A stretch of 64,000 bases of DNA from Desulfovibrionales bacterium (GTDB taxonomy: Bacteria; Desulfobacterota; Desulfovibrionia; Desulfovibrionales; Desulfonatronaceae): the NCBI GenBank assembly GCA_007693505.1, contig REDL01000045.1:124001-188000 (forward strand), read 5' to 3'. The position numbers were made by a program, and so were the translations under genes. Shown piece by piece: positions 7,875-19,649 of this stretch; position 1 is the stretch's first letter, and every line of letters starts with the position of its first letter. Under the pieces are notes generated by a model. It had not been told where the DNA came from, made no database searches, and worked only from the letters and a program-made list of their open reading frames with translations.

Positions 7875-8051
7875 TGCTTCCAGAATGGATTTGTCTGGAA
7901 CCCCTTGATTCAGCTGGAGCATTCACTTGGAGCCCTCTCCTGGGGCATCAGTTGACAGACTCCCGTCTTCCGGCCACAAAAGCCCTTTTCCGTGGCCGTC
8001 GCCTACAGCGACCCTCTAATCACGTATTTGTTCACTCCAGGAGAACGATCT

Positions 8052-9398
8052 ATGGATAACCGCATCAACCTGCCTGAAGCAGACATGCCCCGCCAGTGGT
8101 ACAATGTCTTGCCTGACCTCTCTCCCGCATTGGCTCCACCTCTGGACCCGACAACACAGCAACCCCTGGGACCGGAAAAGCTGGCCGCCATTTTTCCCAT
8201 GTCCGTTATCGAACAGGAGATGTCCACGCAGCGCTGGATCGATATCCCGGAGCCGGTTTGGGACATCTATCGTCTGTTCCGTCCGACACCCCTGGTCCGT
8301 GCCCATCGCCTGGAGCGGGCCATCGGAACCAAGGCCAGAATCTACTACAAGAACGAATCCCTTTCCCCGGCCGGCTCCCATAAGCCGAATACGGCGATTG
8401 CCCAGGCCTACTACAACAAACTGGAAGGCGTACGCCGCCTGACCACCGAAACCGGAGCCGGACAGTGGGGTACAGCCCTGTCCTTTGCCTGCAAGATGTT
8501 CGGCCTGGAGTGCACCGTGTACATGGTTCGCTGCAGTTATGAACAAAAACCCTATCGCGGGGTTCTGATCCGCTCTTATGGCGCGGAAGTTTTTCCGTCT
8601 CCTTCGGACCGGACCAACGCCGGCCGGGCTGTTCTGGCTGAAAAACCTGATTCCGGGGGCAGTCTTGGCTTGGCCATTTCCGAGGCCGTGGAGGATGCCG
8701 CCACCCACGACGATGCAAAGTACTCGTTGGGCAGCGTCCTCAACCATGTCCTGCTGCACCAAACCATTGTCGGCCTCGAAATCAAGAAACAGTTGGCCTT
8801 GGCCGGGGAGACTCCGGATGCACTGGTGGGCTGTGTGGGTGGAGGCAGCAATTTCGGGGGGCTGGTGTTGCCTTTTGTGCCGGAAAGAATGCATGGGAAA
8901 GGTCCGCGCTTCGTGGCCGTGGAACCCAAGGCCTGTCCGACCCTGACCAAAGGTGAGTTCCGTTACGATTACGGAGACATGGCCAAGATGACCCCGTTGC
9001 TGAAGATGCACACCCTGGGCTCGGGCTACTTCCCGCCGCCCATCCATGCCGGGGGCCTGCGCTACCACGGTGACGCTCCCATCGTTTCCCACCTCGTAGA
9101 CCAGGGCCTGGTGGAACCCCGCGCCTACTACCAGAACGACGTATTCGAGGCAGCCAAGCTGTTCCTCCAGACCGAAGGCTTCCTGCCCGCCCCGGAAACC
9201 TCCCACGCCATCAAGGCCGCCATGGACGTGGCCAAGGAAAGCGACCCTGGTTCGGTCATCGTCTTTCTCTACTCCGGCCACGGTCTGCTTGATCTCGGGG
9301 CCTACGACGCCTTTAATCAGGGGAAGCTCAAGGACGATGAGTTCGCCGAATGCGACCTGCAAAAAGCCTTGGCAACGTGTCCAAAGATCAATGTGTGA
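8052..9398 (+). CDS. trpB: TrpB2-type tryptophan synthase beta chain
   Basis: This 448-residue PLP enzyme condenses indole with serine. It is the longer TrpB2 form, with an N-terminal extension (RWYNVLPDL-like) absent from TrpB1. The PLP lysine lies in [10 protein letters not shown], with TETGAGQWG and the glycine-rich phosphate loop [14 protein letters not shown] 8052 is supported by AGGAGA at 8039-8044. No trpA or other trp gene is adjacent, so it may salvage indole, as proposed for other stand-alone TrpB2 proteins. Confidence 0.92.
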
Positions 9399-9531: not shown

Positions 9532-10431
9532 ATGATCGACGCCCTGTTGCACGCCAAGATGATCTTTTTGAGCATCGTCTTTGAATCCTTTCCCTTCATC
9601 CTGATGGGGGCGCTATTTTCCTCGCTGGTCCTGGTGCTGATTCCGGAGCATTTTTTTCGGCGCTGGCTGCCGGAAAATCCCTGGCTCTCCCTGCTCCCGG
9701 CGGTGCTGCTCAGCGCCCTGTTCCCCATCTGTGAGTGCGCCATCATTCCGGTGATCCGCAGCCTGGTGCGCAAGGGCATGCCTCTGGCTGCCGGTGCGGT
9801 CTTTCTTGTGGCCGCGCCGGTGCTCAACCCGGTGGTGGCCGCCTCCACTCTGTTCGCTTTTGGCCTGAACCCGGATGTGCTGATCCTGCGTCTCGCCCTG
9901 TCCGCGGTGGCCGCCTTGCTGGTCGGCTCAGTGGTCTGCCTGCTGCGCGGCAGCCTGGAAAAAGACTTTCCTCGTGAACTGCCCATGGATCACGGCCACG
10001 CGCCCAAAAGCCTGCGGCAGGTCGCGACGTGGCACGAAATCGGTCGGCACACCGCGTCCGAATTTTTCACCGTAGGCTGCTATTTCATCTTCGGTGCGCT
10101 GATTGCCTCCCTGTTCCAGACCTTTCTGCACCAGGCCGTGCTTCTGGACATTGGCTCCGCGCCGTGGTCCTCCACCGTAGTGATGATGATCCTGGCCTAT
10201 CTTCTGTCCCTGTGCTCCGCCGCGGACGCCTTTGTGGCCGCATCCTTTGGCGCGGCCTTCACCCTGCCCGCGCTGCTGGCCTTCCTCGTCTTCGGCCCCA
10301 TGCTGGACCTGAAAAACACGGCCATGCTCCTGGGGTACTTTCCGGCCCGGTTCGTCGCCGTGTTCATCCTCAGCGGTACCCTGGCCGTTTTCCTCCTGGT
10401 AATGGGCTTGCATTTCCTGGGCGTCCAGTGA
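9532..10431 (+). CDS. YraQ/ArsP-type (DUF318) permease
   Basis: This 299-residue inner-membrane protein has about eight hydrophobic segments. The family hallmarks are FPICECAIIP in the first half and LSLCSAADAFVAA in the second. PF03773 permeases include ArsP, which exports organoarsenicals, but most members have no assigned substrate. The gene is followed 13 bases later by its usual partner of the TIGR03943 family. No Shine-Dalgarno sequence is obvious. Confidence 0.82.
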   Translation: MIDALLHAKMIFLSIVFESFPFILMGALFSSLVLVLIPEHFFRRWLPENPWLSLLPAVLLSALFPICECAIIPVIRSLVRKGMPLAAGAVFLVAAPVLNPVVAASTLFAFGLNPDVLILRLALSAVAALLVGSVVCLLRGSLEKDFPRELPMDHGHAPKSLRQVATWHEIGRHTASEFFTVGCYFIFGALIASLFQTFLHQAVLLDIGSAPWSSTVVMMILAYLLSLCSAADAFVAASFGAAFTLPALLAFLVFGPMLDLKNTAMLLGYFPARFVAVFILSGTLAVFLLVMGLHFLGVQ

Positions 10432-10444
10432 GATATTCCTTTGC

Positions 10445-11500
10445 ATGACCGCCGTGAAACATCATACCCGTGACGCCGGGCCAGGCCCAAGCACAGGTCC
10501 AGGCACAGACCCAGGCCGCAACCAGGAACGACATCACCTTTTTTTCGGATTGTTCCAAGTTTTGTTGCTTTTGGGCCTTGCCGCTCTCCAAGCCGTTTTG
10601 CTGCTAAGCGGAGCCATCCATCTCTATATGGCCCCGAAAATGCAGACGTTCGTGATTTTTTCCACTACGGCCTTCGTCCTGATGGCCCTGCACGGCCTGT
10701 GGACCTTGCTGGCTCCTGGAGCTGGGGCGGCGGCCCGATGCGGTTGCAGTCACGACCATGAACCATCGCCAGCCGGCAAGATCGCCATGGTGGTCTTGTT
10801 CGGATTGGTCCTGACCGCGGGCTTTTTTTTGCCGCATCAGGTTCTGGACAGCAGGGTGGCGGAAAAAAAGGGCATCTCGCTCAGCCGCTCAGCGGCTCCG
10901 AGCGTCTTTGGCTCCAGCCGGGAAACGCGACTTCCTCCCGAAGACCATCTTTTTTTCCAGGAGGAAATTCCCTGGGACAGCGCTCAAGCCTGGGACGTCC
11001 CGTCCTCGGGTACGGGTCTGGGAGAGGAACAGGCGAGACTTCGCGAGGAGCTGGGTATCTGGTATGATCGCGATCTCTATCAGGAGCTGTCCGAAGAACT
11101 CCTGGACCGCGACGTACTGCGGATCACGGATGATGACTTCCTGGACTCCATGCTGATCATTTCCGCGTATCTGGACCGCTTTCAGGGCCGGAGGGTGGAG
11201 TTTGCCGGGTTTGTGTACCACGACGGGACCATGGCCGAGAACGAACTGGCCGTGGCCCGGATCGCCATCACCTGCTGCCTGGCCGATGCCATGGTTTACG
11301 GCCTGCTGGTCCATACTGATGAGCCCCTCCCATCCAATGACACCTGGGTCCGGGTCCATGGACGAATCGCGGCGACACGGTTCATGGAAGAGGACATTCC
11401 ATTGATCCTGGCCGAACGGCTGGAAACCATCCCGGCCCCGGACCAGCCCTACGTCTATCCCCGCCTTTACTCCAGCTACGTTTTCGAAGACGGAAGCTGA
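10445..11500 (+). CDS. TIGR03943/YcgQ-family membrane partner of the permease
   Basis: This 351-residue protein has membrane helices near residues 32-56, 64-88 and 113-130, and a Cys/His-rich CGCSHDHE segment between them that could bind metal. A soluble C-terminal domain follows (about 200-345). Such proteins usually sit beside DUF318 permeases (YcgR/YcgQ in Bacillus), as here, and the pair is thought to form one transporter of unknown substrate. The gene is five bases upstream of the GNAT-deacetylase gene, which suggests one transcript. Confidence 0.75.
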   Translation: MTAVKHHTRDAGPGPSTGPGTDPGRNQERHHLFFGLFQVLLLLGLAALQAVLLLSGAIHLYMAPKMQTFVIFSTTAFVLMALHGLWTLLAPGAGAAARCGCSHDHEPSPAGKIAMVVLFGLVLTAGFFLPHQVLDSRVAEKKGISLSRSAAPSVFGSSRETRLPPEDHLFFQEEIPWDSAQAWDVPSSGTGLGEEQARLREELGIWYDRDLYQELSEELLDRDVLRITDDDFLDSMLIISAYLDRFQGRRVEFAGFVYHDGTMAENELAVARIAITCCLADAMVYGLLVHTDEPLPSNDTWVRVHGRIAATRFMEEDIPLILAERLETIPAPDQPYVYPRLYSSYVFEDGS

Positions 11501-11505
11501 CACAT

Positions 11506-13266
11506 ATGTTCCGCATCCGTCGTGTCCAGGACGCCACGTGGCCGGGGGACGCCTGGGTCATCGCCAAAGTCCAGGATATTCTGCGTGAGCAGTTCCCCTT
11601 GCTCGCCCCCGAGGATGTGGCCAAGCTGCCCGAGCAGTTGCTCGATCCGCTGAAATTTCGCTTCCGAACCATTCTCTTCGCCGCTGAAGGTTCGGGAAAT
11701 CGGTTGCAGGGCTTTGCTCTGTTCATGCACGCCCCGGACCTGCGCTTCGGATACCTGGACTTTATGTCCGCGGCCACCATGCAGACAGGACGGGGTGTGG
11801 GCGGGGCACTGTACGCCAGAGTCCGAGATGAAGCCAAGGCCTTGGAATTGAGGGGAGTATTCTTCGAGTGCCTGCCTGACGATCCGGCAATGTGCACCGA
11901 GCCTGCCATCTTACGTCAAAACAAGGCTCGGCTGCGTTTTTATGAACGCTTCGGGGCTAGGCCCATCATCGGCACGGCCTACGAGACGCCCCTCAAACCC
12001 GAGGACACCTGCCCGCCGTATCTGGTGGCCGATCTCCTGGACCGGAACAAACAGCTACGCCGTCGGGACGTCCGAAAAATCGTCAGGGCCATTCTGGAGC
12101 GCAAATACGCTGGAAGCTGCCCACCTGGTTACGTGGATATGGTCGTGGCCTCATTCCAGGACGATCCGGTACGCATCCGCGATCCGCTTTATGTCGCAGC
12201 GGGCATGGACCAGCCCGTTTCGCCGACATGGCCGGCAGGGGCCGTGCTGCAACAAGACAAAAGCATCGCCTTGGTGGTCAACGATCGACACGATATTCAT
12301 CACGTCCATGAGCGGGGGTATGTGGAAGCGCCGGTGCGCATCAGGTCTATTATCAAGGAGATCGAGCCGTTGGGCCTGTTTCAGCGCATCGGCGTCCGCC
12401 ATTTCGGCGAGGAGCACATTCTGGCTGTTCACGACCGCAAACTGGTGGAGTATCTGAAGCGGGCCTCGGCTCGGCTCAAGCCGGGCGAGTCGGTCTATCC
12501 CTATGTTTTTCCAATTCGCAATCAGGCCAGACCACCCAAGGAACTGCCGATCCGGGCAGGATACTTTTGCATCGACACCTTTACGCCCATCAACCGCAAC
12601 GCCTTTCTGGCGGCCAAGCGGGCCGTGGATTGCGCCCTGACGGCGGTCCAGGCCCTGCGCGAAGGCTACCGCGCCGCTTACGCCCTGGTACGTCCCCCGG
12701 GACACCATGCCGAGCGTCGTGTTTTTGGAGGATTCTGCTATTTCAATTCCGCCGCCGTGGCCGCCCAGAGCCTGAGCCAACACGGTCGAGTGGCAGTCCT
12801 GGACATCGACTATCACCACGGCAATGGTGCCCAGGACATCTTCTCCCATCGCCCTGACGTGCTCACCGTTTCCCTGCACGGCCATCCCCGCTTCGCCTAC
12901 CCCTATTTTAGCGGATACGCAGAAGAAAAAGGGGAAGGACTTGGTACAGGTTTCAATCTGAACTTTCCCCTGCCGGAAATCCTCAACGGCGAGGAGTACC
13001 GCGAGACTCTGGCCAACGCCTTGCGACGAATCAAGAAATTCTCACCCCGCACCCTGGTCGTTGCCTTGGGTTTGGATCCGGCCAAAGACGATCCAACAGG
13101 GTCTTGGAGCCTCACGGCCAACGATTTTGAACGAAACGGCCGGATGATCGGTGAACTCCGCTTCCCCACCTTGGTGGTCCAGGAGGGCGGCTACCGCATC
13201 CGCTCCCTTGGCGGTAATGCCAGACACTTTTTTCAGGGCCTGGCGATCGGAATGTTTGGCCGATGA
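11506..13266 (+). CDS. GNAT acetyltransferase fused to histone deacetylase-like amidohydrolase
   Basis: This is a single 586-residue polypeptide. Residues about 1-165 form a GNAT domain, with the acetyl-CoA loop QTGRGVGGALY at 93-103. Residues about 235-580 form a class II-type HDAC/acetylpolyamine amidohydrolase with every catalytic element: RPPGHHA (His400/His401), zinc ligands Asp435, His437 and Asp524, and the catalytic Tyr563 in GGY. Acetyl addition and removal are therefore joined. The substrate is unknown; histones are unlikely, and small acetylated amines or protein lysines are plausible. It is convergent with the kamA operon, 25 bases away, and co-directional with the permease pair. 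Confidence 0.87.
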   Translation: MFRIRRVQDATWPGDAWVIAKVQDILREQFPLLAPEDVAKLPEQLLDPLKFRFRTILFAAEGSGNRLQGFALFMHAPDLRFGYLDFMSAATMQTGRGVGGALYARVRDEAKALELRGVFFECLPDDPAMCTEPAILRQNKARLRFYERFGARPIIGTAYETPLKPEDTCPPYLVADLLDRNKQLRRRDVRKIVRAILERKYAGSCPPGYVDMVVASFQDDPVRIRDPLYVAAGMDQPVSPTWPAGAVLQQDKSIALVVNDRHDIHHVHERGYVEAPVRIRSIIKEIEPLGLFQRIGVRHFGEEHILAVHDRKLVEYLKRASARLKPGESVYPYVFPIRNQARPPKELPIRAGYFCIDTFTPINRNAFLAAKRAVDCALTAVQALREGYRAAYALVRPPGHHAERRVFGGFCYFNSAAVAAQSLSQHGRVAVLDIDYHHGNGAQDIFSHRPDVLTVSLHGHPRFAYPYFSGYAEEKGEGLGTGFNLNFPLPEILNGEEYRETLANALRRIKKFSPRTLVVALGLDPAKDDPTGSWSLTANDFERNGRMIGELRFPTLVVQEGGYRIRSLGGNARHFFQGLAIGMFGR

Positions 13267-13279
13267 GATGGTTCTCATC
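13262..13279. other. Short hairpin between convergent operons
   Basis: GATGAGA / TCTCATC arms with a TGGT loop overlap the stop codon of the GNAT-deacetylase gene. There is no T-run on either strand, so it is at best a weak transcript-end structure. Confidence 0.3.
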
Positions 13280-13291
13280 AGTGAAGAACAG

Positions 13292-13789
13292 CTACCAGGA
13301 TTTACAGTAGATATGCTTATGGTCGCCTGGTGCGTAGAAGTCCCTGAGCACAGCTTCCTGTGAATAACCGCAACGTTCGTAGAATTGTCGCGTCCTGCGG
13401 TAGAGGGTTTGAGATGATGTTTCGACATACATTCTGGTTCCGCCAAGACTTGTTGCTTCCGCCTCGCTTGCGGACATCAGGAGTTTGCCGAGACCCTGAC
13501 CTTGGACCTGAGGGTGGACGATAATCCAATAGAGGTCAAAACTGGACCCGGTACAAGGGATCGGGCCGAAGCAGGCATAGCCAGAGACATGACCCGCACT
13601 GTTCTCGGCCAGCAGGAAGTGGTACCCGCTGGACGGACCGTTGCATAACCGTTCCAAGACAAGCTCGGCAGCCACTGCCAGCTCCTGGGGACGGAAAAAG
13701 CCGGTTTGATCGGCCAGCCGACGAACCACGTCAATGTCCGATTTCCGAACTTCACGCCGGAATATGATCTGTTCCAAGGTGAACATCAT
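13292..13789 (-). CDS. GNAT-family N-acetyltransferase in kamA operon
   Basis: This single-domain GNAT of 165 residues has the acetyl-CoA binding loop QGQGLG and a typical C-terminal FYERCGY motif. It is shorter than AblB, the beta-lysine acetyltransferase of methanogens, so AblB identity is not claimed. It is the last gene of a four-gene overlapping operon and overlaps the preceding ATP-grasp gene by 38 bases. Context suggests that it acetylates the product of that operon. The start is either of two adjacent ATG codons. Confidence 0.82.
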   Translation of the reverse strand: MMFTLEQIIFRREVRKSDIDVVRRLADQTGFFRPQELAVAAELVLERLCNGPSSGYHFLLAENSAGHVSGYACFGPIPCTGSSFDLYWIIVHPQVQGQGLGKLLMSASEAEATSLGGTRMYVETSSQTLYRRTRQFYERCGYSQEAVLRDFYAPGDHKHIYCKSW

Positions 13790-14816
13790 CGCTCAAAAGT
13801 GTGTACTGTTGTACCCGACCTCCGTGGAGCGCATGGAACTGGCGCGACGCCGCCTGAAGAAGTCGCTCCATGATTTCCTTGAAACCCACCCCGGAAGCCA
13901 AGGCCGCGGCCTGATACCCGGCATCCGGGGATAGACACGGATTGGCGTTGACGTCGATAACCCAAGGCTGATTGTGCGCATCCACGCGGAAATCCACCCG
14001 GGCATAGCCGGACAGCCCGAACGCCAGCCAGCATTCACGGGCCAGGGCACGCAACGAATCCAGCAGAGCCATGTCCTGGCCTGAAAACGTCTGCCTCCGA
14101 ATTGTATTTTGGTATTCAAAGCTCTGCTCCAACCATTTGGCCCGGTAGCCGACCACTTTGGGCATTTCTGCCGGATAACCCGTAAATACCATTTCCGCCG
14201 GGCACAAGAACCGTGGAACCCCTGCCTCCTCGATCATGGCCAGACTGAATTCCCTTCCGGGAATATAGACCTCGGCAAACCATTCTCCGCCGAGTTGCGC
14301 CATATGCTGCTCAATGGCTTTCAGAAGCTTAGTCGGGCTTGAGGTCCTGAGGACATTGTCACCTTCCAGAGCGTGGGAAGCATGCTCCCAGACCGATTTC
14401 ACGATGTACACGCCGGGAAAGCAGGCTGAGCCAGCACCCTGGTTGTCAAGCCAGAGAGGACTTGGCAATCCACTGGCATGCAGAACGGACTTCGCGAGTA
14501 GCTTGCTGGTGGAATTCTGCAAAGCCGAAGCTGAACCGCCAGTAAAGGGAATCTTCATTTCTTCAAGCAATGCGGGAACCAAATGTGCGGACCTGGCTGA
14601 CCCCTCCAAGCTTTCCACAAGATTAAAAACTATTTCCGGTCTCTGCTCTGTCAGCAAAGATCTTGCCTGGCAAAGGTGCAGCGGCCAGTCCTGGATTTGC
14701 ACATCATGGCCCAAGCCGGCCAATGCAGACGCCACGGCCTGCACCTGGTCCATGACATCCGCGTCCGCCGGAGACGCTCCATCAGTGACCGGGTTGTGCA
14801 CCACCAAAATGTTCAT
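13752..14816 (-). CDS. ATP-grasp ligase (D-Ala-D-Ala ligase-like), second of pair
   Basis: This 354-residue protein has the D-Ala-D-Ala ligase fold: an N-terminal Rossmann-like part with IVFNLVESLEG, a central ATP-binding region and the Mg-binding C-terminal motif ARVDFRVD...WVIDVNANPC. Such enzymes form an acyl phosphate and then an amide bond. It overlaps the upstream ligase by four bases (ATGA) and the downstream GNAT by 38. It is clearly different from a housekeeping Ddl and no mur genes are nearby, so it probably joins two amino acids in a special pathway. Confidence 0.8.
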   Translation of the reverse strand: MNILVVHNPVTDGASPADADVMDQVQAVASALAGLGHDVQIQDWPLHLCQARSLLTEQRPEIVFNLVESLEGSARSAHLVPALLEEMKIPFTGGSASALQNSTSKLLAKSVLHASGLPSPLWLDNQGAGSACFPGVYIVKSVWEHASHALEGDNVLRTSSPTKLLKAIEQHMAQLGGEWFAEVYIPGREFSLAMIEEAGVPRFLCPAEMVFTGYPAEMPKVVGYRAKWLEQSFEYQNTIRRQTFSGQDMALLDSLRALARECWLAFGLSGYARVDFRVDAHNQPWVIDVNANPCLSPDAGYQAAALASGVGFKEIMERLLQAASRQFHALHGGRVQQYTLLSDDVHLGTDHIPA

Positions 14817-15832
14817 GCCGCCAGCACCAAATCCATTTTCTGAGAATGAGGCTGCGCTTGGCCCACCCGTTCAAGGGCGGACTCCATGATCATCCGAATC
14901 AGTTCACCATGCTCGATGCCCTGAAAGGCGCACATGATGGAAAGGTCCGAGCGAATGGGATGCAGGCCAGGCAGGGGGTTGATTTCCAGGATGCCGGGCA
15001 GTCCATCCCCACCGATCCGAATATCAACACGCCCTCCATCCCGACATCCCAACCCGCGCCAGGCATCCAGAGCCAGCCGGGAAAGCTTTGCCGCGGAATC
15101 ACCCTGGATCAGGGCATACCGGACACGGTCTTCATACGCTTCCTTGTTGTTCTGGGAGTAGATCAACTGATCCGCTCCTTCCAGAAGCAGGATTTCCATC
15201 ACCCCCAGCGCATGGGCCTTGGCACCGCTCCCCACGATCCCCACGGTGTACTCCCGGCCTGAAAGAAAGCGTTCCACGAGAACCGGCTGTCGAAAACCAT
15301 CCTGCAGCATCCGACAGACCCGGTACAGCTGCCCCCTGTTCCGGACTACACTGGTGCTGTGAATTCCCTTGCTGGTACCTTCGGCCACTGGTTTGACAAA
15401 CAATGGGTACTCCAGGTGAATGGAGCGCACGTCATCCATGGTCTCGGCTACGGCAAAATCCGGTGTGGGCAGGCTCAGATCCCTCAGGACGCGCTTGGTC
15501 ATGGCCTTGTGCAGACACAACCCTAAAACCATGGGATCGGAAAACGTACACGGTATTCCGTGGGCTTCCAACAATGCCGGAACCTGGGCTTCGCGGGCGA
15601 ACCCATGCATACCTTCGGCAATATTGAAAACCAGATCCCAACGCGTTCCCTCCACCAGACAGCGCATCAAGGCTGTCAGGTTGCCAATCCGTTCCGGAAC
15701 ATGGCCCATGACACGAATTCCAGCCTCAATGGCATCGATGGTGGCCGGGCTGTCGAATTCCGCGGTTTCTTCCAGACTATAACCACTGGCCAAATAATCC
15801 TGACGCAAGTCATAGGTCAGTCCGATCTTCAC
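14813..15832 (-). CDS. ATP-grasp ligase (D-Ala-D-Ala ligase-like), first of pair
   Basis: This 339-residue protein begins KIGLTYDLRQDY. It has DLVFNIAEG, the ATP-binding LFVKPVAEGTSKGI and the metal motif RVDIR...ILEINPLPGL, all typical of Ddl-like ATP-grasp ligases. The full catalytic core appears intact. It overlaps both neighbours by four bases (ATGA), so kamA, both ligases and the GNAT form one translational unit. The substrate is inferred to be beta-lysine or a derivative because of kamA; this is not shown by the sequence itself. Confidence 0.82.
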   Translation of the reverse strand: MKIGLTYDLRQDYLASGYSLEETAEFDSPATIDAIEAGIRVMGHVPERIGNLTALMRCLVEGTRWDLVFNIAEGMHGFAREAQVPALLEAHGIPCTFSDPMVLGLCLHKAMTKRVLRDLSLPTPDFAVAETMDDVRSIHLEYPLFVKPVAEGTSKGIHSTSVVRNRGQLYRVCRMLQDGFRQPVLVERFLSGREYTVGIVGSGAKAHALGVMEILLLEGADQLIYSQNNKEAYEDRVRYALIQGDSAAKLSRLALDAWRGLGCRDGGRVDIRIGGDGLPGILEINPLPGLHPIRSDLSIMCAFQGIEHGELIRMIMESALERVGQAQPHSQKMDLVLAA

Positions 15833-17199
15833 GCTACACCCCCGACATTCATTTCAGGTTCCATCGGGTCGTGAACCCGGTACAATTCCCCACTGTAGTT
15901 CCGGAGCAGCAGGTCCCGTCCGTCGCGCCCCTGAAGATATTCAGGACAGAGTGGGGTTTTTCCGCCACCCCCAGGCAGGTCAATCACATACTGGGGAATG
16001 GCGTAGCCCGAGGTATGACCGCGCAATCCACGAATCAACTCCAACCCCCAGTCCACGCGGGTCCGAAAGTGAGCGGTCCCCACGACCTGGTCGCAGTGAT
16101 ACAGGTAGTAAGGGCGGATGCGGTTGCGCAGCAACCCCTGAAAGAGACTGGTCAAGGCGGGAAGGGTATCGTTGATGCCTTTGAGCAACACGGTCTGGCC
16201 ACCAAGAACAACACCACCATCGGCCAGACGCGTGCAGGCGCGTTGGGATTCCGGGGTCAGCTCCTCGGCCAGGGTGCAATGAATACTGATGAACAGCGGA
16301 TGGTAACGGCGCAACATCTGAACCAGACGATTGGTAATCCGTTGGGGAAGTACCATGGGCGTCTTGGTTCCAATGCGGATGATTTCTACGTGGGAAATGG
16401 CTCTCAGGCGTTGGAGGAGATACTCCAGGGCATGATCCGCCATGGTCAATGGATCGCCACCCGAAATGAGCACATCCCGGATGTTTGCGTTGCGCTCAAT
16501 ATACTTGAGGGCTGGTTCCCACTGACTGGGGCCCCAGGTAAATTCCCGGGTGAGTTCCCTCTTGCCTACTCGACGTGAGCGGGTGCAATACCGGCAATAT
16601 GTGGAACAGAAGTCCGTGACCAGAAACAAAACCCGATCAGGATAGCGATGCACAATGCCCTGCACCGGACTGTCCCCTTCTTCACCCAGAGGGTCACCTT
16701 CCTCACAGGCCAGAATGATCCTCTCGTCCATGGTTGGAATGACGCAACGCCGCAGGGGCTGGTGAGGATCATTTCTGCTCAGCAAACTGGCATAATACGG
16801 GGTTACGGCAAATGGCAGCTTGTTCTTGCTGGGCGCCAAAGCCTCCCGTTCCCATGATGAGAGGTCGACGACTCTTTCCAGTTCCACAAGGGTTGTGATG
16901 CGGTGCTTCAGCTGCCATCGCCAGTCGTTCCAATGGGTAGGGCTCGCCTGCGGATAGTGTTCCGCAAGGAACGCAGCGGAACGAGAACTTAGCGAAAATG
17001 CCGACTTGTTGTTTTTTTGCCGCCTCAGGCCGTCCCCCCCATGCCCCATCACCGCAGAGATCAGATCGGAAACACCGGAAACAGAGCCTGGATGGGGTGC
17101 ATTACCGACCATCCGGGCAGGAGGCTCGACATCCAAATCCAGGATTTCGTCCATGATTGTCCTCGAATCCCTGGGATGCGCGCCCAGAGATGGTTGCAT
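15829..17199 (-). CDS. Lysine 2,3-aminomutase-family radical SAM enzyme
   Basis: The protein resembles KamA/AblA, which converts L-lysine to L-beta-lysine using a 4Fe-4S cluster, SAM and PLP. Cluster cysteines are Cys198, Cys202 and Cys205 (CSTYCRYC), and the PLP lysine is Lys414 in GGGGK. Asp370 and Asp407 have the same spacing (37, then 7 to Lys) as Asp293/Asp330/Lys337 of clostridial lysine 2,3-aminomutase, whose aspartates hold the substrate epsilon-amino group; this favours lysine as substrate. No EpmA or EF-P gene is adjacent. An alternative start, ATG 17154, has a better ribosome-binding site (GAGGA). Confidence 0.85.
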   Translation of the reverse strand: MQPSLGAHPRDSRTIMDEILDLDVEPPARMVGNAPHPGSVSGVSDLISAVMGHGGDGLRRQKNNKSAFSLSSRSAAFLAEHYPQASPTHWNDWRWQLKHRITTLVELERVVDLSSWEREALAPSKNKLPFAVTPYYASLLSRNDPHQPLRRCVIPTMDERIILACEEGDPLGEEGDSPVQGIVHRYPDRVLFLVTDFCSTYCRYCTRSRRVGKRELTREFTWGPSQWEPALKYIERNANIRDVLISGGDPLTMADHALEYLLQRLRAISHVEIIRIGTKTPMVLPQRITNRLVQMLRRYHPLFISIHCTLAEELTPESQRACTRLADGGVVLGGQTVLLKGINDTLPALTSLFQGLLRNRIRPYYLYHCDQVVGTAHFRTRVDWGLELIRGLRGHTSGYAIPQYVIDLPGGGGKTPLCPEYLQGRDGRDLLLRNYSGELYRVHDPMEPEMNVGGVA

Positions 17200-17225
17200 G
17201 TTGCCTACAAGGTCAACATGCCGAA

Positions 17226-17241
17226 AGCAATCATTGGGCCA
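17226..17241 (-). promoter_or_regulatory. Sigma-54 (-24/-12) promoter of the kamA operon
   Basis: Read on the minus strand, this is TGGCCCAATGATTGCT. It matches the RpoN consensus TGGCAYRNNNNTTGCW at every defined position but one (A to C), with correct spacing between the GG and GC dinucleotides. Transcription would start near 17216, giving a short leader before kamA. The gene immediately upstream encodes a sigma-54 activator. Confidence 0.72.
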
Positions 17242-17288
17242 AATCTAATTACCTGAAAAAAATGAATAAATTAAAAAAGAACGTGCGG

Positions 17289-17314
17289 GAATGAGAAATA
17301 CAATTTCTTCATTC
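17289..17314. promoter_or_regulatory. Dyad upstream of kamA promoter, candidate activator site
   Basis: GAATGAGAAAT (17289-17299) and ATTTCTTCATTC (17303-17314) form an inverted repeat that is perfect apart from one inserted base. It lies about 50-70 bases upstream of the -24 element, where a sigma-54 activator could bind. It is assigned by position and symmetry only. Confidence 0.4.
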
Positions 17315-17465
17315 AGGGCACCTTAATCAGCCGGCTGAGGTCAGAGGCCTCCCCTGTTGAAAAAACAATGAGAAAAAAACAGGAAGTCGTGTTGCCGATT
17401 TTTTAAAAACAAGAAATACCGCTTCATAACCTTCGCAAGGCGGCTTATTTGCATTACTGGATCAG

Positions 17466-18869
17466 CTACTTGAAATCCTCCTTGCGGAGCCTGTAGCGAT
17501 TCATCAGATTATGCAATTGACGCGGAGTGATGCCGATGTGCATGGCGGACTGCTTGATGCTTCCTCGATATTCGGCCAGAAGTACCTTGAGATAGGATCG
17601 CTCCACATTCTCCAGCGCCAGACGCCTGACCTCGGACAACGGCTGAGAAATATCCAGAGCCATGGTTACCCCCTGCCCGACGCCTTCGAACATTTCCTGA
17701 GGAAAACTTTCCGGTGTCAGAACATGGGAGCGCTCCAAAAGAAACGCCCTCTCAATAATATTTTCCAGTTCACGCACATTGCCCGGCCATTCATAGCGAG
17801 TCAGAACGGGGAGAACCAATGGGTGCACACCGAGAATTTCTTTGACATGCAGCGTGTTCAGCTGTTTCAGAAAGTGGTCCACCAGGAGAGGAATGTCTTC
17901 GCGACGCTCCCGCAAGGGCGGAACCTCGATGGGAAAAACATTCAGGCGGTAAAATAGGTCCGTGCGGAACATTCCTTGAGCGCTCAGGGATTTCAAGTCT
18001 TCATTGGAAGCGGTAATAATGCGGGCCTCCAGGCGAATGTCTTTTTCGCCCCCCACCCGTTGAAAGACTTTGTCCTGGAGCACCTGGAGCAACTTGATCT
18101 GCATGGCCGGGCTGATGGTACTGATTTCGTCCAGGAAGACCGTACCACCTGCACCCAGTTCAAACTTACCCAGCTTGCGTCGCACAGCACCAGTAAAAGA
18201 ACCTTTTTCATGTCCGAACAGTTCACTTTCAATCAACGTTTCCGGAATGGCCCCGCAGTGCACACCGATGAAAGGGAATTGGGCCCTGGCGCTATGCGAG
18301 TGAATGCTGCGTGCAATGACTCCCTTGCCCGTCCCGGTTTCCCCGCAGAGCAGAACCGTAGTGTTGGACTTGGCCACAACCTGGACCTTTTCATGCACCT
18401 TGCTCATAGCTGTGCTGCGCATGTCGCCCATGCGCAGCAGCCCGCCCGTCATGGCTTCATCGCGAAAATGGTCCAGCTCCGACTGGACCTTTAAGGACTC
18501 ATACAGGCTCTCCATCACAAACAGCAGTTCATCCTTATTCAAAGGATACGTGAGATAATTTCCGGCACCAGCCTTGACAACGAACACGGCGTCCCGGATG
18601 CGCCCTTGCGGGGCCAGGACAATAATTTCCGCATGAGGATTATTGCGCCAGTAACACTGCAGTTCCTTGCGATAATCAGATACGGTCTTGTCCGGCTGGA
18701 TATTCAAAAAATCAAGATCCACCAGCACAAAATCATACTCATTGTGCGAAACCTTGTTCTGGAGTTGAACCTTTGAGCCGACGACATCCACCGTGCCGTC
18801 GGGAGCAAAGGCCTCACTCACGACTTTCAGACTGGCAACATCATTGGAGGCAAGGAGGATGCGTTTCAT
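17466..18869 (-). CDS. Sigma-54-dependent activator with degenerate receiver domain
   Basis: This 467-residue protein has an N-terminal receiver-like domain (1-125), an AAA+ sigma-54 interaction domain (about 145-375) and a C-terminal Fis-type helix-turn-helix. The AAA+ part has Walker A GETGTGKG, the sigma-54 contact loop GSFTGA (a variant of GAFTGA) and WPGNVRELEN. The receiver keeps Asp51 (VLVD) but its acidic pair is reduced to Asn9-Asp10, so phosphorylation may be atypical. No histidine kinase is adjacent. It lies directly upstream of kamA and its sigma-54 promoter, which makes kamA a likely target. Confidence 0.9.
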   Translation of the reverse strand: MKRILLASNDVASLKVVSEAFAPDGTVDVVGSKVQLQNKVSHNEYDFVLVDLDFLNIQPDKTVSDYRKELQCYWRNNPHAEIIVLAPQGRIRDAVFVVKAGAGNYLTYPLNKDELLFVMESLYESLKVQSELDHFRDEAMTGGLLRMGDMRSTAMSKVHEKVQVVAKSNTTVLLCGETGTGKGVIARSIHSHSARAQFPFIGVHCGAIPETLIESELFGHEKGSFTGAVRRKLGKFELGAGGTVFLDEISTISPAMQIKLLQVLQDKVFQRVGGEKDIRLEARIITASNEDLKSLSAQGMFRTDLFYRLNVFPIEVPPLRERREDIPLLVDHFLKQLNTLHVKEILGVHPLVLPVLTRYEWPGNVRELENIIERAFLLERSHVLTPESFPQEMFEGVGQGVTMALDISQPLSEVRRLALENVERSYLKVLLAEYRGSIKQSAMHIGITPRQLHNLMNRYRLRKEDFK

Positions 18870-18896
18870 GGGAGGGACTGAGTATCGACAAGCAGC

Positions 18897-19649
18897 TCAG
18901 CAGACTCGATGCTGCCAAGCAACTTCAGCCTGAAAAACGGACTGCGCAGGAGGAGTGCGCAGACCGACTATGGTCTGGCGGCCAGAAGGACATCGTGACT
19001 GGGCCTGAATGGAAATACGCTCACCGAGCAGGGTCTCTGCAAGATAGTCAATGCGAATCGATCGAATCTGCTCCATTTCATGTTGGCCTTGACCAAAACT
19101 GTCCAGAATCCAGCGGACATAGGCTGCGTTGTTCACATGTTGGTTCACGTCCAGGTCGCTATAAGGCACGGTGATGACACCGAGTTGCCGCATTTCTTGG
19201 GCGGAACATTGCTTTTCAAGAATACCACCCTCCACCTCCGGTTCGTTGGGCATGACAATGTGTTCCAGGAAAGGCCCAGGCCGGACTGGACGCCGTTTTG
19301 CCGCGTCCAGGATCACCCAGGCCGAGATCCCTGAGCCGAATTCCCCCCCGGCCGGGTCCAGTAGCCGGAAATGGCGCATTGCGAAGAGCCGGTGGACTCC
19401 CTGGGGCCAAGTGCGAACCACGAACTCCCGACCCCAGGCCGGATATTGCCCAATCTGCATCCAACAGCGCGACAGCACCCAAAAGCAACCATGTGCCCCA
19501 AGAGCAGCCCGGCCCACGCCCAGTTCCTGGGCATGGTGACCGGCAGCTTCCTGAAAACAGGAAAAGAGGGCGTCCAGTCGAGCCAAACCGAACAGATCCG
19601 CATCACTGGTCCGGACCCGAAACATCTCCGTCCAAACTGATTGTCTCAC
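18897..19649 (-). CDS. Acyl-ACP thioesterase (FatA/FatB-like)
   Basis: This double hot-dog protein of about 250 residues resembles bacterial acyl-ACP thioesterases that release fatty acids from acyl carrier protein. It shows TSDADLFG near the N-terminus and PYSDLDVNQHVNNAAYVRWILD, which carries the conserved Asn/His of the second hot-dog domain. GTG 19649 overlaps the stop of the upstream epimerase (GTGA) and keeps the conserved WTEMFRVR; ATG 19625 is the alternative. It is followed 27 bases later by the sigma-54 activator gene. Confidence 0.78.
   Translation of the reverse strand: MRQSVWTEMFRVRTSDADLFGLARLDALFSCFQEAAGHHAQELGVGRAALGAHGCFWVLSRCWMQIGQYPAWGREFVVRTWPQGVHRLFAMRHFRLLDPAGGEFGSGISAWVILDAAKRRPVRPGPFLEHIVMPNEPEVEGGILEKQCSAQEMRQLGVITVPYSDLDVNQHVNNAAYVRWILDSFGQGQHEMEQIRSIRIDYLAETLLGERISIQAQSRCPSGRQTIVGLRTPPAQSVFQAEVAWQHRVC

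Follow-up and report, generated by a model that had tools for sequence, protein, structure and literature searches.

A conserved cassette of kamA, two ATP-grasp ligase genes and acetyltransferase genes in Desulfovibrionales and other bacteria: a candidate pathway to a beta-lysine-containing peptide

Introduction

In methanogens and some bacteria, the lysine 2,3-aminomutase AblA and the GNAT acetyltransferase AblB form and acetylate beta-lysine in the synthesis of the osmolyte N-epsilon-acetyl-beta-lysine. Synthesis of N-acetylglutaminylglutamine amide (NAGGN) couples ATP-grasp ligation with a GNAT, at times within one fused protein, and involves no KamA. EpmB, which acts with EpmA on elongation factor P (EF-P), is a KamA relative that makes beta-lysine. 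Here we describe a gene cassette in a 64,000-nucleotide stretch of a Desulfovibrionales bacterium genome (assembly GCA_007693505.1, contig REDL01000045.1, positions 124,001 to 188,000; hereafter the window), comprising kamA, two ligase genes (LigA and LigB), a GNAT gene and a convergent gene encoding a GNAT-deacetylase fusion. The cassette shares beta-lysine formation and acetylation with AblA/AblB, to which it adds two ATP-grasp ligases and a deacetylase. Its combination of ATP-grasp ligation and a GNAT resembles the outline of NAGGN synthesis, from which it differs by KamA. We lean towards the reading that the cassette is a dedicated pathway of mostly anaerobic bacteria, making a small peptide that contains beta-lysine, carries an acetylatable amine and stays in the cytoplasm.

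The preliminary description of the locus, made from the sequence of the window, held that no pathway with this gene set had been described, and the literature searched (full text, with subscription papers mostly missing) agrees with that statement. The work of Iyer et al. 2009 on amidoligases with ATP-grasp domains may contain an earlier mention of the cassette. Passages of PMC2996986, PMC2922099, PMC4641369, PMC3543383, PMC5585712 and PMC12316311 do not describe the cassette.

Results and discussion

Organization and conservation of the cassette

The genes of the cassette, in window coordinates, are as follows.

kamA: 15829 to 17199, minus strand, lysine 2,3-aminomutase-like radical SAM/pyridoxal phosphate (PLP) enzyme (PF12544, PF04055 and TIGR00238 above cut-off)
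LigA: 14813 to 15832, minus strand, D-Ala-D-Ala-ligase-like ATP-grasp ligase 1, GTG start (PF07478), the marker gene of the cassette
LigB: 13752 to 14816, minus strand, D-Ala-D-Ala-ligase-like ATP-grasp ligase 2 (PF07478)
GNAT acetyltransferase: 13292 to 13789, minus strand (PF13508/PF00583)
GNAT-deacetylase fusion (the fifth gene): 11506 to 13266, plus strand, convergent with the operon (PF00850)

The four minus-strand genes form an operon with overlaps of 4, 4 and 38 bases, as first described. Pfam domains were identified in all four products: radical SAM and LAM_C in KamA, Dala_Dala_lig_C in both ligases and Acetyltransf in the GNAT. These four genes had been presented as the whole unit. 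The conserved unit is larger, and the convergent gene at 11506-13266, overlooked at that time, belongs to it.

LigA served as the marker gene. Among 199 genomes of the order, 54 matched LigA and five (G007, G021, G040, G120 and G187; E 2e-21 to 1e-23) were removed as Ddl-like, leaving 49; G080 was accepted on a contig-end fragment and G047 on two pieces. LigB matched 50 genomes, from which four (G003, G039, G051 and G160; E 1e-31 or weaker) were removed as not LigB, and the other 46 all lie among the 49 LigA genomes. The locus tally omits L178, fetched for its LigB, and the Ddl-like L058-L062. In the 47 order loci anchored on LigA, kamA is present in 47, LigB in 43 and GNAT in 43, counting same-strand genes at a distance of up to 7 kb. 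Where at least 2.5 kb was available on both sides (n=40), all four genes occur in 38 loci, and kamA and LigA stand alone in two (L053 and L080). A first-look set of 30 loci, made up of short stretches and including the window's own, has kamA-LigA in 30, LigB in 29 and the GNAT in 27.

Beyond the order, a LigA-type ligase (E 1e-60 or better) was found in 140 of 395 genomes of a phylum sample, so that LigA is present in roughly one in four genomes of the order sample (49/199) and one in three of the phylum sample (140/395). A scan of a genome collection retrieved at least 577 LigA relatives, mostly from metagenome bins whose phylum labels may be wrong. The best 80 of these contain kamA in 73 loci, LigB in 65 and GNAT in 55, and kamA lies near LigA in 54 of the 57 loci with 2.5 kb on both sides. 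The titles of the best 80 name Deltaproteobacteria, Bacteroidetes, Planctomycetes, Spirochaetes, Acidobacteria, Fibrobacteres, WOR-3 and others. A divergent set of 59 loci was drawn from 60 hand-chosen regions of the 140 phylum genomes and G160; it is non-random, coming mostly from the weaker half, and has kamA in 40, LigB in 56 and GNAT in 34. Absence of such co-occurrence had been named beforehand as a finding that would speak against the proposed pathway, and the neighbourhood comparison gave the opposite result, with kamA and both ligases found together widely in other genomes. The kamA/LigA/LigB/GNAT set is a real conserved unit, well beyond chance.

The full four-gene set is not the minimum, as L053 and L080 carry LigA with kamA and neither LigB nor GNAT, and the kamA-LigA pair may be the minimal form of the pathway. 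Loci with kamA-LigA and without LigB or GNAT are L053, L080, L093, L122, L132, L146 and L161. At L146 and L161, the pair is followed by a gene for a large membrane protein, of MFS-HEAT type (Pfam for L146 only). Two LigA-type domains in one reading frame were seen at L165 (6269-8299, 676 amino acids) and L197, with kamA, LigB and GNAT not nearby.

A fifth gene encoding a GNAT-deacetylase fusion

The fifth gene encodes an N-terminal GNAT domain followed by a deacetylase domain (PF00850, 248.7 bits). The nearest solved chains of the deacetylase domain are the acetylpolyamine amidohydrolases 9gkz (nearest), 6phr and 3q9b, and the catalytic residues are complete. The Asp-His-Asp zinc site and His-His dyad are invariant in 23 aligned sequences, and the tyrosine is conserved in 22, with one gap. 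The domain is of the acetylpolyamine amidohydrolase type and may act on acetylated polyamines. The fifth protein differs from these enzymes in its added GNAT domain and in its company of beta-lysine and ligase genes.

The GNAT-deacetylase fusion gene belongs to the cassette. In other loci, it is embedded in the cassette, flanked either by LigB and GNAT or by kamA and LigA. No more than 7 kb separates it from LigA in 12 of the 47 order loci and 15 of the 80 collection loci (best 80 of at least 577). The fusion is found in 39 of the 199 order genomes, and LigA is present in 38 of these (Fisher p 1e-29, kinship ignored). The only carrier among the 150 order genomes that lack LigA is G035, an assembly that is 84% complete and in 440 contigs. 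Within the order, the fusion tracks LigA also where the two are unlinked. Of the 37 fusion carriers in the phylum sample, 36 have LigA (p 6e-17, kinship again ignored), after removal of G467, which has the deacetylase domain alone. At L133, L140 and L150, the deacetylase is joined to the cassette GNAT in one protein. These three proteins (L133:11996-14269, L140 and L150) have a GNAT-deacetylase-GNAT order over about 750-800 amino acids, two GNAT domains flanking one deacetylase domain.

KamA and the cassette GNAT compared with AblA/AblB

Residues 82-446 of KamA align with the lysine 2,3-aminomutase 2a5h (E 1.8e-119), and its TIGR00238 score of 323 bits (cut-off 199) places it in the lysine 2,3-aminomutase family. 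The cluster, PLP and lysine-pocket residues are intact, in line with the preliminary description. All 103 aligned sequences keep Asp370, Asp407 and Lys414, and the cysteines of the CxxxCxxC motif are present in 102, with one gap. Asp370 and Asp407 correspond to what we take to be the lysine pocket of 2a5h. Because both of these aspartates are kept, lysine is the likely substrate of KamA, with arginine as a possible alternative.

The cassette KamA scores 430.8 bits against the AblA equivalog TIGR03820, below the cut-off of 525.4. TIGR03827, the AblB family model with a cut-off of 205.1 bits, gives no match to the cassette GNAT at E 0.001 and is touched by six of 52 GNAT relatives with a best E of 5e-6. 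A separate pair scoring as AblA (743.9 bits, cut-off 525.4) and AblB (295.9 bits, cut-off 205.1) is encoded elsewhere in the same genome, on C48. Classical AblA/AblB osmolyte synthesis was rejected for the cassette on these grounds, and the separate pair suggests that the cassette is a second beta-lysine route and not one to N-epsilon-acetyl-beta-lysine. In the KamA tree, the AblA of this genome groups with the KamA of L084 (support 0.89), among cassette branches whose support is weak. A third KamA relative of the genome (L225:3740-4813, C36) is best matched by arginine 2,3-aminomutase, below the cut-off.

The nearest solved chain to the cassette GNAT is 2r7h of Desulfovibrio alaskensis G20 (E 6e-41), labelled as a putative D-alanine N-acetyltransferase; we know of no test behind this label. 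NAGGN synthesis was also considered and rejected. Its family TIGR03103 is not among the NCBIfam matches of LigB and the GNAT, nor among the best 25 of 35 matches of LigA, and it is weakly matched by three of 52 GNAT relatives (best E 3.6e-4).

LigA and LigB

AlphaFold2 models of LigA and LigB have mean predicted local distance difference test (pLDDT) scores of 90.8 and 92.4, respectively. The best Foldseek matches of both models are D-alanine--D-alanine ligases (Ddl), with template modelling (TM) scores by query length of about 0.75 for LigA and 0.69 for LigB. Both ligases thus share the fold and the ATP-grasp core with Ddl, but lie far under the cut-offs of the Ddl families. LigA scores 131.4 bits and LigB 79.4 bits where the cut-off is 243, and 109.1 and 61.7 bits where it is 246.

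The two ligases also depart from Ddl in motif residues. In LigA, the acceptor-site serine is followed by an aspartate. Ser295 is invariant in 100 aligned LigAs and position 296 is Asp in 99 and Glu in one; in a profile alignment with Ddl, Asp296 replaces the hydrophobic residue after the conserved serine. This residue would suit a cationic acceptor such as beta-lysine. LigB has NxNPC in place of NxxPG, and Cys294 of this motif is Cys in 86 of 87 aligned sequences. LigB is fused to the GNAT at L032, L078, L135, L139 and L174, which ties acetylation to the second ligation.

Arginine decarboxylase variants

In 14 of the 59 divergent loci (L168-L171, L177, L182, L209, L211, L212, L214, L216-L218 and L222), LigA and LigB lie directly behind a pyruvoyl arginine decarboxylase gene. 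Eight of these loci have a GNAT and 11 have an agmatinase-type gene; the decarboxylase and agmatinase-type families were confirmed on one example each. None of the 14 loci contains kamA, but KamA is present somewhere in all 26 genomes checked, including 13 of the 14 of the decarboxylase type. Four unlinked KamAs were scored, and all fit AblA better than EpmB. The surroundings of unlinked KamAs (17 loci) yielded no AblB homologue. Dependence of the cassette on agmatine from this decarboxylase was discarded, as fewer than half of the order's LigA genomes (22 of 49) have the enzyme. We take the arrangement for the gene order of one lineage; it may hint at polyamine-like chemistry.

Deoxyhypusine-synthase-like genes were also seen in some decarboxylase-type loci. 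A small MerR-type regulator gene stands beside the unlinked kamA at L230, L237 and L242, all from decarboxylase-type genomes (PF13411 just at cut-off, L237).

Proposed pathway and alternative explanations

From the gene order, conservation, catalytic residues, co-inheritance of the fifth gene and fusions described above, we infer the following substrates, step order, product and role. KamA would convert L-lysine to beta-lysine, and LigA, its near-constant partner, would use ATP to form an amide bond between beta-lysine and a partner. LigB would attach a second residue, and the GNAT would acetylate a free amine on the product, presumably a beta-lysine dipeptide or tripeptide. The GNAT-deacetylase fusion may put on or take off acetyl groups, which would set the charge of the molecule or lead to its dismantling. 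The product would stay in the cytoplasm as a solute or polyamine-like protectant, under control of a sigma-54 activator. No gene resembling a dedicated exporter recurs in the cluster table of cassette neighbours, and the product is therefore probably cytoplasmic; this also argues against a secreted siderophore.

Several observations weigh against this proposal. The cassette KamAs form no clade apart from AblA in the KamA tree. LigA occurs without kamA at L111, L156 and L158, and the kamA-LigA pair stands alone at L053 and L080. The deacetylase fusion is missing from 11 of 49 order and 104 of 140 phylum-sample LigA genomes. The decarboxylase loci have kamA elsewhere in the genome, and beta-lysine need not be the sole building block. 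That Asp296 contacts a cation is guesswork based on an alignment, the substrates of both ligases are likewise conjectural, and the pathway as a whole is read from sequences and predicted models.

The osmolyte, siderophore or signal roles put forward in the preliminary description gained no direct support, and a classical ablA-ablB pair is already encoded in the genome. The type of the deacetylase and the decarboxylase variant suggest a polyamine-like role. A solute role is possible, but is made less likely by the separate ablA-ablB pair and by the freshwater hosts that titles indicate. We keep both as candidate roles.

Another order of events would be a protecting-group logic, in which the GNAT masks one amine, either on beta-lysine or on the product of LigA, and thereby directs the coupling by LigB to the correct position. 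The deacetylase would later strip the acetyl group, leaving a cationic polyamine-like beta-lysyl peptide as the end product. This scheme fits the loci in which the GNAT is joined to LigB (five) or to the deacetylase (three). It also fits the acetylpolyamine type of the deacetylase, the tracking of LigA by the deacetylase and the 14 divergent loci with ligases behind the decarboxylase, 11 of them with an agmatinase-type gene. However, the 104 phylum-sample LigA genomes without the deacetylase imply that deacetylation is not an obligatory last step unless another enzyme acts, and the limited occurrence of the decarboxylase in the order (22/49) implies that its agmatine is not required. Taken as a whole, blocking and later stripping seem unlikely, although worth serious consideration.

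We judge it equally doubtful that the cassette makes a compatible solute, which would be a zwitterionic beta-lysyl peptide, N-acetylated and built up at high salt like N-epsilon-acetyl-beta-lysine or NAGGN. The chemistry of beta-lysine and acetylation matches the known osmolyte, and the lack of an exporter recurring beside the genes is consistent with accumulation in the cell. However, the same genome has the classical ablA-ablB pair, two ATP-dependent ligations would be expensive for a bulk solute, and the carriers include assemblies titled as fen, sludge and groundwater, which are low-salt places. Ectoine synthase, searched for as a salt marker, was found in 0 of 199 order genomes, but no control genome matched and its absence is not shown.

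Modification of the cell envelope is improbable. D-Asp ligases modify the cell-wall precursor in some Gram-positives, and Ddl is nearest to both cassette ligases in sequence and fold, so the two enzymes could add beta-lysine or another residue to such a precursor. However, the cluster table shows no recurring cell-wall gene next to the cassette, both ligases fall short of the Ddl cut-offs and presence within one order is patchy (49/199).

Modification of EF-P by KamA with unrelated neighbours, which the preliminary description had named as an outcome that would overturn its reading, can be set aside as highly improbable: KamA matches the EpmB family TIGR03821 but at 236.3 bits against a cut-off of 369.3 (431 bits against AblA), the genome has no EpmA over cut-off (best genX score 249.6 of 286.9 bits, in a 508-amino-acid frame as expected of lysyl-tRNA synthetase) and the kamA-ligase linkage is conserved.

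Regulation and neighbouring genes

Three further features lie around the start of the operon.

NtrC-type sigma-54 activator: 17466 to 18869, minus strand, directly upstream of the operon, probable regulator (PF00158 and Fis HTH)
Candidate sigma-54-type -24/-12 promoter: 17227 to 17241, minus strand, TGGCCC-N5-TTGC, upstream of kamA
Putative ribosome-binding site GAGGA: 17160 to 17164, minus strand, fitting a kamA start at 17154

The true start of kamA is probably codon 16, the ATG at 17154, because a better ribosome-binding site precedes it and relatives start nearby. Among 98 kamA genes tested, 23 have a close homologue of the NtrC-type activator within the locus retrieved around them. When no more than one mismatch is allowed, 17 of the 98 kamA upstream regions contain a -24/-12 element, whereas shuffled versions of these regions would be expected to give 0.40 (kinship ignored). 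The activator is the probable regulator of the operon.

An ArsP/DUF1980-type permease pair (PF03773, TIGR03943) is encoded at 9532-11500, just upstream of the deacetylase gene, and adjoins a gene for a TrpB-like PLP enzyme (TIGR01415, high score) at 7992-9398. Other genes that recur near the cassette in the surveyed loci, namely GGDEF, MutM, DUF47/PiT-like and spermidine-type ABC transport genes, stem from few lineages; these names were read by eye from the sequence, save PF13416 for one ABC gene. An Rfam scan of window positions 11000-19000 detected no RNA families.

Implications

The cassette is invisible in annotation, since its genes are named by family alone, as radical SAM, D-Ala-D-Ala ligase, GNAT and histone deacetylase. 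Tentatively, and with less confidence than in the pathway itself, we suggest a widespread metabolite of anaerobes, an acetylatable beta-lysine-based polyamine-like peptide made by the five-gene cassette, whose charge would be switched by the pair of GNAT and GNAT-deacetylase. If one metabolite is made, hundreds of anaerobic species, including sulfate reducers, syntrophs and their relatives, would share a compound that no annotation names. If the proposed pathway is true, two new ligase specificities would be added, the puzzling 'histone deacetylases' of these bacteria would be accounted for, and beta-lysine peptides would join bacterial primary or stress metabolism.

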